Shown here piece after piece: positions 32,165-33,867 of a DNA stretch of 40,514 bases. Both the position numbers and the translations under genes were made by a program. The DNA is from Actinomycetes bacterium. GTDB lineage: Bacteria; Actinomycetota; Thermoleophilia; BMS3ABIN01. How positions within the stretch are numbered: the stretch's first letter is position 1; every line of letters begins with the position of its first letter. Location of the stretch: contig JAJRWQ010000007.1 of assembly GCA_024276735.1 (NCBI GenBank), forward strand, positions 1 through 40,514, given 5' to 3'. The notes beneath the pieces are model-generated. The model ran no database searches, had not been told where the DNA came from, and was given only the letters and a program-made list of their open reading frames with translations.

Positions 32165-32193
32165 TTGAAAAGCGCGGCGGCATTGCTTACAAT
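32165..32193 (+). promoter_or_regulatory. Promoter of the tRNA-Tyr-Thr-Met cluster
   Basis: TTGAAA (32165-32170), a 17-base spacer and TACAAT (32188-32193). The predicted start near 32200 is 50 bases before tRNA-Tyr. Confidence 0.65.
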
Positions 32194-32249: not shown

Positions 32250-32334
32250 GGGGGAGTGCCCGAGTGGTTAAAGGGGGCGGACTGTAAATCCGTTGGCGTT
32301 GCCTACACTGGTTCGAATCCAGTCTCCCCCACCA
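32250..32334 (+). tRNA. tRNA-Tyr (anticodon GUA)
   Basis: Acceptor GGGGGAG/CTCCCCC, anticodon loop CTGTAAA (GTA), a long variable arm as in bacterial tRNA-Tyr, T-stem ACTGG/CCAGT, encoded CCA at 32332-32334. Confidence 0.96.
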
Positions 32335-32335
32335 G

Positions 32336-32447
32336 GAGCGGATGCTGGATGCTGGATTCTGGACGCTGGATAAAGTCGTTGGTGGTTCGAAGCTTTGGTG
32401 AGGATGCGATAGTTTATCCAGTATCCAGTATCCAGCATCCAGAGTCC
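32336..32447. repeat. Hairpin-forming tRNA-spacer repeat, copy 1
   Basis: Left arm (about 32341-32371) is a run of degenerate TGGA-y-n-C units; right arm (32416-32447) is a run of ATCCAG-n units complementary to it. The core between them contains GTGGTTCGAAGC and GAGGATGCGATAGTTT. It fills nearly the whole spacer between tRNA-Tyr and tRNA-Thr. Confidence 0.8.
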
Positions 32448-32453
32448 GTATAA

Positions 32454-32529
32454 GCCCGGTTAGCTCAGTTGGTAGAGCACCTCCATGGTAAGGAGGGGGT
32501 CTGCGGTTCAAGTCCGCAACCGGGCTCCA
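32454..32529 (+). tRNA. tRNA-Thr (anticodon GGU)
   Basis: Acceptor GCCCGGT/ACCGGGC, anticodon stem CCTCC/GGAGG with loop ATGGTAA (GGT, reading ACC/ACU), T-stem TGCGG/CCGCA, encoded CCA at 32527-32529. Confidence 0.96.
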
Positions 32530-32533
32530 TTCA

Positions 32534-32650
32534 GCGGACGCTGGACACTGGATTCTGGACGCTGGAAAAAGACCTTCATGGTTCGAAACATTGATGAGGG
32601 TGCGATAGATAGTTTGATCCAGAATCCAGCATCCAGGATCCAGAATCCGC
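32534..32650. repeat. Hairpin-forming tRNA-spacer repeat, copy 2
   Basis: The same arms (GACGCTGGACACTGGATTC on the left; ATCCAGAATCCAGCATCCAG on the right) around a more diverged core, with GGTTCGAAAC in place of GGTTCGAAGC and a small insertion (ATAGATAGTTT). It occupies the spacer between tRNA-Thr and tRNA-Met. Confidence 0.78.
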
Positions 32651-32654
32651 ACAC

Positions 32655-32731
32655 GGCGGTGTAGCTCAGCTGGTTAGAGCAGCGGAATCATAATCCGCGT
32701 GTCGCAGGTTCGAGTCCTGCCACCGCTACCA
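32655..32731 (+). tRNA. tRNA-Met, elongator type (anticodon CAU)
   Basis: Cloverleaf with anticodon stem GCGGA/TCCGC and loop ATCATAA (CAT), T-stem GCAGG/CCTGC, encoded CCA at 32729-32731. The first acceptor pair is G-T (GGCGGTG against CACCGCT). It lacks the three G-C pairs of an initiator, and its position after Tyr and Thr matches elongator Met of actinobacteria; an Ile2 tRNA is less likely. Confidence 0.92.
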
Positions 32732-32735
32732 ATGA

Positions 32736-32861
32736 AGCGGACGCTGGACACTGGATTCTGGACGCTGGATAAAGTCGTTGGTGGTTCGAAGCTTTTGTGA
32801 GGATGCGATAGTTTGATCCAGTATCTAGCATCCAAAATCCAGAATCCAGCACCCAGGATCT
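32736..32861. repeat. Hairpin-forming tRNA-spacer repeat, copy 3
   Basis: The core is almost identical to copy 1 (AAAGTCGTTGGTGGTTCGAA, then GAGGATGCGATAGTTT). The left arm is nearly identical to copy 2. The right arm is longer and partly decayed. It follows tRNA-Met directly. Confidence 0.78.
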
Positions 32862-32877
32862 GCCCTGTGGACCGGGG

Positions 32878-32950
32878 ATGAAGTCGTTAGTGGCTTGAAG
32901 CCAGGCAGGAGATGAGAAGTTTTGATCCAGTATCCAGCATCCAGAATCCG
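32878..32950. repeat. tRNA-spacer repeat, copy 4 (partial, diverged)
   Basis: A truncated copy: core GATGAAGTCGTTAGTGGCTT and right arm ATCCAGTATCCAGCATCCAG without a matching left arm. It is joined to copy 3 and ends 20 bases before the HEAT-repeat lipoprotein gene. Confidence 0.65.
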
Positions 32951-32970
32951 CAATTACCCGATTCCAGGCG

Positions 32971-33867
32971 ATGAGCCCGATGCCTGCTGAAAAAGGAAAT
33001 CCACGCTCCCGTATCCACGCCCTGCCGGCGGTTTGCCTGCTGGCCGCGGTCCTGCTCCTCTCGCTTTCGTTCCTGGCCGGTTGCGGCAGCGAGCCGCAGG
33101 CGGGAGACGGAGACGAGGACCTGGTAGCCAAGCTGGCCAGTGAGGATCAGGGGGAACGCGAGGCGGCGGCGGACGCCCTGGTGGAGCAGGGCGGAGCCGC
33201 CGTACAGCCGCTGGTCGCGGCCTTCAGCGGCGACAACCAGGACGTCGATTTCCTCAAGCGGGTGCAGGCAGTGCTGGTGCGCATCGGCGAGCCGGCGGTG
33301 CAGCCGCTGGTGGACTCGCTGGGCTACTCCGGCAACCGCAGCTCCACGTCGCTGGCATGGAAGAAGAATACGCTGGTTCAAATCGGCGCTCCCGCCGTCG
33401 AGCCGCTGAAGGCGGCGCTGGCGAACGAGGATCCCCGGGCCAGGAAAGCCGCCGCCGACACCCTGGGGAAGATCGGCGATCCCGCGGCGGTGAGCGCGCT
33501 GGCGCCGCTCCTCGACGATGAAGACCGGGAGGTGCGCCTGCAGGTGGCCGAGTCGCTGGGGGCGATCGCCGACCCGGCGGCCATCGAGCCGCTGGTTGAG
33601 GCCCTGGCCACCAATGACTACGGGATGCAGCAGGCGATAGAGAGGTCACTGGCGCTCATCAAGGAGGCCAACGGCCCCTCACCGGCACTCGAGAAAGCCT
33701 ACGATGCCTGCATCGAGATCACCGTGAAGCCGCTCACGGAGCCCATCGGTCTCCAGCTGGACGCCGACGGCAACTTCATCAACCCGGAGGCGATGAACGG
33801 CATGGCCGACGATGACAAGCTGCGGATCGTCTACGCCGTCAGCGACTGCGTGGCCATCAAGCGTTAG
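32971..33867 (+). CDS. HEAT-repeat lipoprotein
   Basis: A 298-residue exported lipoprotein. A signal peptide ends in lipobox FLAGC (lipid-bearing Cys about residue 38). It is followed by four to five HEAT-like repeats such as ERE-AAADALVEQGGAAVQPLV, RKAAADTLGKIGDPAAVSAL and RLQVAESLGAIADPAAIEPL (PBS-lyase type repeats), which form a helical protein-binding solenoid. The last 70 residues are a different, acidic domain ending VSDCVAIKR. It sits on the outer face of the membrane; partner unknown. The gene lies inside an otherwise conserved tRNA-rpmG-tRNA-secE block, right after the spacer repeats, which suggests insertion there. A Met three codons downstream is an alternative start. Confidence 0.84.
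   Translation: MSPMPAEKGNPRSRIHALPAVCLLAAVLLLSLSFLAGCGSEPQAGDGDEDLVAKLASEDQGEREAAADALVEQGGAAVQPLVAAFSGDNQDVDFLKRVQAVLVRIGEPAVQPLVDSLGYSGNRSSTSLAWKKNTLVQIGAPAVEPLKAALANEDPRARKAAADTLGKIGDPAAVSALAPLLDDEDREVRLQVAESLGAIADPAAIEPLVEALATNDYGMQQAIERSLALIKEANGPSPALEKAYDACIEITVKPLTEPIGLQLDADGNFINPEAMNGMADDDKLRIVYAVSDCVAIKR

Follow-up and report, generated by a model that had tools for sequence, protein, structure and literature searches.

Three tRNA genes, for tyrosine, threonine and methionine, lie on the same strand with short spacers, and because of this arrangement they probably form an operon. They are found in a window (the whole stretch of DNA analysed, 40,514 nucleotides) on contig C41 of a 1.61-Mb draft genome, G000, which is 89.6% complete and split into 120 contigs. 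Four related elements accompany them (Table 1). The earlier note placed all four in the tRNA-tRNA spacers; in fact copies 3 and 4 come after the last tRNA gene, ahead of the next ORF from about position 32971. That ORF (32971-33867) encodes an N-terminal signal peptide and a lipobox-like LAGC, and reads as a lipoprotein. A promoter-like site ahead of the tRNA cluster, at 32165-32193, is no better than chance. An Rfam search of the window returned the tRNAs only and no other known RNA family.

Table 1 Elements and tRNA genes at the locus.
Feature	Position	Strand	Context	Parts
tRNA-Tyr (GTA)	32250..32334	+	upstream of copy 1	
Copy 1	32337..32449	+	tRNA-Tyr/tRNA-Thr spacer	left arm 32339-32370 (CGGATGC and four TGGA heptads); 46-nt core 32371-32416; right arm 32417-32448
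tRNA-Thr (GGT)	32454..32529	+	between copies 1 and 2	
Copy 2	32534..32651	+	tRNA-Thr/tRNA-Met spacer	left arm 32535-32566; 51-nt core 32567-32617; right arm 32618-32651
tRNA-Met (CAT)	32655..32731	+	between copies 2 and 3	
Copy 3	32737..32866	+	directly after tRNA-Met	left arm 32738-32769; 47-nt core 32770-32816; right arm 32817-32866, longer, decayed
Copy 4 (half element)	~32877..32951	+		core-like part 32877-32924; right arm 32925-32951; no left arm

Copies 1-3 are palindromes. Each arm holds five heptads, an outer CGGA unit followed by units of consensus TGGAYNC on the left, with ATCCAGN-type heptads on the right; in copy 1 the arms, 36 nt long, are 86% complementary. RNA folding shows that the inverted arms of these three copies (32-36 nt) would give a long stem in the transcript, as expected of IVS/S23p elements. 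The folding energies of copies 1, 2 and 3 are -63.5, -54.7 and -52.5 kcal/mol, with z-scores of -9.27, -7.28 and -4.09 against dinucleotide shuffles, none of which folds as well. Copy 4, reduced to a core and right arm as previously noticed, folds no better than its shuffles (z 0.34), so that the earlier description of heptad-armed inverted repeats able to form hairpins holds for three of the four. Identity reaches 95% between copies 1 and 3, over 79 nt, and 82% for copy 2, which bears out the relationship already proposed between them. The cores of copies 1-3 contain GGTTCGAA(A/G)C.

The local elements belong to a dispersed family. From genome searches and the examination of individual stretches we count about 30 copies, spread over 13 contigs and some 20 sites. 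Almost all lie in gene spacers, and crude ORF calls place several of them 3-11 nt from the end of a gene. A BLAST search of the genome with the element finds 79 matches, which fall on more than 12 contigs. The heptad pattern CTGGANNCTGGANNCTGGA (heptad triplets) occurs 36 + 40 = 76 times genome-wide and its reversed control never; a palindrome pattern has 20 matches per strand, against 0 for its control. The family is therefore not confined to the tRNA-Tyr/Thr/Met spacers, contrary to what the earlier note had claimed. Many copies lie at contig ends (C7, C18, C24, C87, C102, C111), for which reason the assembly probably breaks at them and the copy number is probably underestimated. A search of viral contigs found no such palindrome, and a literature search by the letters of the repeat gave only unrelated matches among those listed.

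Twenty-nine oriented cores align as a single homologous family, flanked on either side by (C)TGGAYN heptads. The typical element is about 110 nt long and consists of five heptads, (C)GGAYN and then four TGGAYNC, a 46-nt core and the inverted heptads. The loop from the innermost TGGA to TCCA measures 46 nt in most copies, although its sequence varies; common to the 29 cores are the motifs AAAtCGcTCG, GnaaCGaG and GanGGTTTtATCCA. The T-arm-like GGTTCGAA occurs in only three of them, all on C41, and is absent from the other 26. It is thus a true feature of the local cores, but neither a property of the family nor a sign of T-arm origin, and a tRNA-derived (SINE-like) element was rejected on this ground. 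Inspected by eye as a possible remnant of the S23p ORF, the core gave no convincing match.

The arms show no compensatory pairing: in 15 distinct copies with 46-nt loops, 354 cells are paired, compared with 356.8 expected when partners are shuffled among copies. Observed pairing equals this expectation, hence the conserved heptad accounts for it and compensatory change does not. In the YN spacer, the two bases of the left arm vary without regard to those of the right. This comparison therefore does not demonstrate selection acting on the hairpin as RNA. The core has no covariation either, and RNAalifold on its gapped alignment returns no structure.

Among the 20 or so sites, about 5 (C18, C41, two on C78, and C87) are within ~110 bp of a tRNA gene, when compared with the genome's 33 tRNAs; a rough estimate that takes the small share of spacers in the genome into account puts the expected number at about 1. 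There may thus be a mild enrichment near tRNAs, not a confinement, and the question raised earlier of whether other copies abut tRNA genes has a divided answer, about 15 sites being away from them. Further tRNA-adjoining copies exist in sister genomes G016 (L079) and G010 (L090).

The sister genomes also differ in how the tRNA cluster is spaced. The Tyr-Thr spacer is only 3-11 nt long in G005, G009, G016 and G018. In genus g3, heptad hairpins are found in both spacers of G002 and G010, and only in the Thr-Met spacer of G016; both their motifs (GGATGGT, TGGATGC) and their loops have diverged from those of the window's hairpins. Such near-empty and occupied spacers across genera suggest that the elements are insertions, old or repeated, in the tRNA cluster of two genera. 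The spacers are too diverged to define exact element ends, as a comparison for target-site duplication would need. Heptads occur in 8 of 40 relatives, nearly all from the same family; of the 396 phylum genomes, 3 have palindromes. Another dispersed-looking repeat, of the CATCCTGAGG ... GAGGGATCTGC type, occupies the same Tyr/Thr spacer in G003 (L189) and is also present in G014 (L082). Taken with the single core family, its roughly 30 copies and the decayed ones among them, the near-empty Tyr-Thr spacers agree with the earlier suggestion of non-autonomous mobile hairpins that spread and decay.

IVS/S23p elements are selfish, little understood, and best known from 23S ribosomal RNA, where they are cut out of the transcript by RNase III. 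They have been known for more than 25 years, and we know of no established way of moving or role for S23p. A palindrome scan of GTDB genomes led to 48 stretches in Bacteroidota, Acidobacteriota, Chloroflexota, Pseudomonas, Omnitrophota, Paceibacterota and others. In the Paceibacterota stretch (L121), an S23p/IVP gene is framed by the same ATCTGGA arms. PF05635, the S23p family, is over cut-off in 25 of 29 genomes with CTGGA palindromes, drawn from many phyla, often in 5-14 copies. In the window's phylum it passes the cut-off in 39 of 396 genomes, and among control genomes in 0 of 14. Such co-occurrence is suggestive of a link, in a comparison that mixes phyla and may partly reflect phylogeny.

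The flanks of S23p genes offer stronger support than co-occurrence. Heptad arms are associated with these genes, which are framed by inverted arms with a period of 7 nt (sometimes 8) and many different motifs. We took 23 S23p loci of the phylum, chosen without regard to repeats, with windows ~1 kb away as controls. A 7-nt score of at least 12 is reached at 13/23 loci and in 1/23 control windows, an inverted-arm score of at least 18 at 13/23 and 0/23, respectively; periods 4 to 6 and 9 to 13 give no signal in this sample (14 being a multiple of 7). Among loci from the palindrome-bearing genomes, 14/24 pass the first threshold against 2/24 controls, and 21/24 pass the second against 0/24. On finished cyanobacterial plasmids, heptad arms are strong at six of seven S23p loci, two of the seven being near-copies in one strain, and weak at the seventh. 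Two such plasmids, of Anabaena sp. 90 and Pseudanabaena galeata, carry heptad-armed S23p genes between cas6 and cas4, and one of Nostoc edaphicum has its gene between nrdB and nrdA (L271, L272, L269 group). The full elements are ~425-700 nt long, and those with checked neighbours lie outside rRNA, in operon spacers. We propose, from sequence, that arms of 7-nt units characterise S23p/IVS elements throughout the bacteria, a view that goes beyond that of the earlier note.

ORF-less palindromes and S23p elements have features in common within single genomes. Chloracidobacterium UBA7656 has an S23p gene (L157) with GTCTGGA arms on either side, and the same motif builds the ORF-less palindromes (L118, L119, L139); a common motif likewise unites S23p arms and ORF-less palindromes of one Paceibacterota genome. 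In Pseudomonadaceae the two kinds of element have common inner ends. The S23p element of P. fluvialis has TGCTTTTTCGTTCAGCC just inside its right arm, and of 13 ORF-less palindromes from three Pseudomonadaceae, 12 contain this sequence as well (p ≤ 0.01 each against shuffles). A search of phage records found no P. fluvialis S23p. The direct evidence for ORF loss comes from Pseudomonas, outside the window's lineage. The window's own genome has no PF05635 gene, which may be missing from an assembly that is 89.6% complete. S23p elements of close relatives have other heptads than the window's, and none with exactly a CTGGAYN arm and the window's core was found among close relatives and genomes examined.

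The arm motif varies even at one site. In three species of Pseudomonadaceae an S23p element, encoding proteins 52-73% identical, lies between cysD and cysN (named from their PAPS-reductase and EF-Tu-GTPase domains), with a different heptad in each species: CTGGAGG, CAAGCNN or CAGGCNN. In these species (L172, L174, L177) each genome has ~20 to 150 related candidates for ORF-less palindromes. Relatives G012, G009 and G014 (L149, L150, L151) have S23p between two adjacent proton-antiporter subunit genes in nuoL-nuoM order, where the arms carry three unrelated heptad motifs. Three motifs at each of these two sites show that arms can change motif in place and yet stay inverted copies of each other.

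We weighed three other origins for the hairpins. A conventional MITE or REP/BIME-like family, moved by a transposase (a Y1 RAYT, for instance) with termini to match CGGATNCTGGA, and unrelated to S23p with its 7-nt arms merely convergent, would account for the MITE-like size, the palindromic form, the intergenic position and the one homologous core. We hold it to be unlikely. The genome does have one Y1_Tnp gene (C100:5023-5358), but no TGGA/TCCA heptads occur within 1.5 kb of it, and a REP/RAYT element was rejected accordingly; moreover, heptad arms like these frame S23p genes across many phyla, and the Pseudomonas palindromes have the inner ends of an S23p element. The Y1_Tnp product (L265) is RAYT-like with a weak C-terminal match to a DnaA-type helix-turn-helix, and its gene is unflanked by palindromes.

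Still less probable, in our judgement, is the earlier note's first option, a host-selected processing or regulatory element whose hairpins were kept because they help the Tyr-Thr-Met transcript to mature. In its favour are the heptad hairpins in corresponding spacers of G000 and three g3 genomes, the possible excess of sites near tRNAs and the tRNA-adjacent copies of sister genomes; against it, about three quarters of the sites are not near tRNAs, sister genomes manage with spacers of 3-11 nt or unrelated ones, GGTTCGAA is private to the local copies, and the arms lack compensatory change. Finally, the palindromes could form locally and repeatedly by slippage of heptad tandem repeats and fold-back (template switching), with no mobile parent. 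The variable unit numbers, the change of heptad flavour at the cysD-cysN and nuoL-nuoM sites and the 7-nt unit favoured everywhere would fit, but a non-repetitive 46-nt core common to some 20 dispersed sites needs whole-unit copying, and we regard this origin as very improbable. Slippage and fold-back may nevertheless explain the change of the arms.

The four elements belong to a genome-wide palindromic family, ORF-less and dispersed, and we consider it probable that in design this family falls into the IVS/S23p class: transcribed stem-loops with tandem 7-nt arms, whose full versions, of ~430-620 nt, hold an S23p gene in the loop and lie in rRNA helices or, at every locus sampled here, in operon spacers. 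The window's hairpins are probably gene-less, MITE-like relatives that RNase III renders tolerable. They would be co-transcribed with the tRNAs, and RNase III would cut the stem of ~35 bp; the cut hairpin would then be removed during tRNA end trimming, so that an insertion would cost little and be tolerated in a tRNA operon. They would spread in the manner of IVSs; S23p may act in trans or may have been lost since. Cleavage is likely by analogy with IVS elements: in the 23S IVS of C. burnetii, the arm holds tandem GACAGAT heptamers, the stem is 28 bp long and RNase III cuts at the first repeat (PMC4990558).

The 23S rRNA IVSs that carry an S23p/IVP ORF (Coxiella, Leptospira; PF05635) resemble the window's elements as transcribed stem-loops with inverted arms, and their ORF can decay. 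The Coxiella IVS has 7-nt arm units in tandem as well; at 428-444 nt, its length is similar to that of the full S23p elements described here. In contrast, the window's elements have a 46-nt core and no ORF, are ~110 nt long, exist in ~30 dispersed copies and lie in gene spacers, including tRNA spacers, none being shown in an rRNA helix. We class them as IVS-type in how they would work, and not as members in the strict sense, since ORF and rRNA location are both lacking. With MITEs and REP/BIME/REPIN the family has in common short, non-autonomous, dispersed palindromes; unlike them it has arms of tandem heptads. No matching transposase ends were found in the window's genome, and the diverged sister spacers revealed no target duplication or exact excision. 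Nor was a full-length mobiliser-coding element with the same terminal repeats found in that genome; in P. fluvialis the ORF-less copies have the inner ends of the S23p element.

Heptamers have been published separately: besides the Coxiella IVS units, intergenic TAACTGA repeats in Beggiatoaceae, Cyanobacteria and Bacteroidetes (PMC4679880), and GGGAATC in Xanthomonas, with 70-75 convergent pairs able to form hairpins (PMC4692102). Both of the latter are 7-nt units in spacers like the window's. The two papers interpret them as regulatory repeats or G-quadruplexes, and the terms S23 and 'intervening' are absent from both. In the open-access literature searched we found no paper that joins these reports or gives heptad arms as a rule for non-rRNA S23p genes.

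More tentatively, at somewhat less than even confidence, we suggest that heptad-armed hairpins form one bacterium-wide, S23p-centred mobile class, with full elements and ORF-less swarms that have its ends, living in operon and tRNA spacers and made harmless by RNase III; the published intergenic heptamers would be parts of it. The arm motif would be renewed in both arms together by a dedicated copying process, since a single cysD-cysN site has three motifs and a single nuoL-nuoM site also three. The S23p ring, a pentamer, could recognise heptads while leaving their two-base spacers free, in the way that TRAP recognises its triplets; a solved S23p structure is that of X. campestris XCC0516 (PDB 2GSC). 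That exactly five heptads match the pentamer fits the window's family, but S23p arms elsewhere have ~3 to 10 units or more, and the match is a speculation.

If the arms are a recognisable 7-nt signature, many dispersed copies would be at hand for testing how the elements move, together with the empty sites and ORF-less derivatives that cultivable Pseudomonas offers. If true, this reading would give a single explanation for the scattered reports of intergenic heptamer repeats, and would show tRNA operons to be tolerated landing sites.
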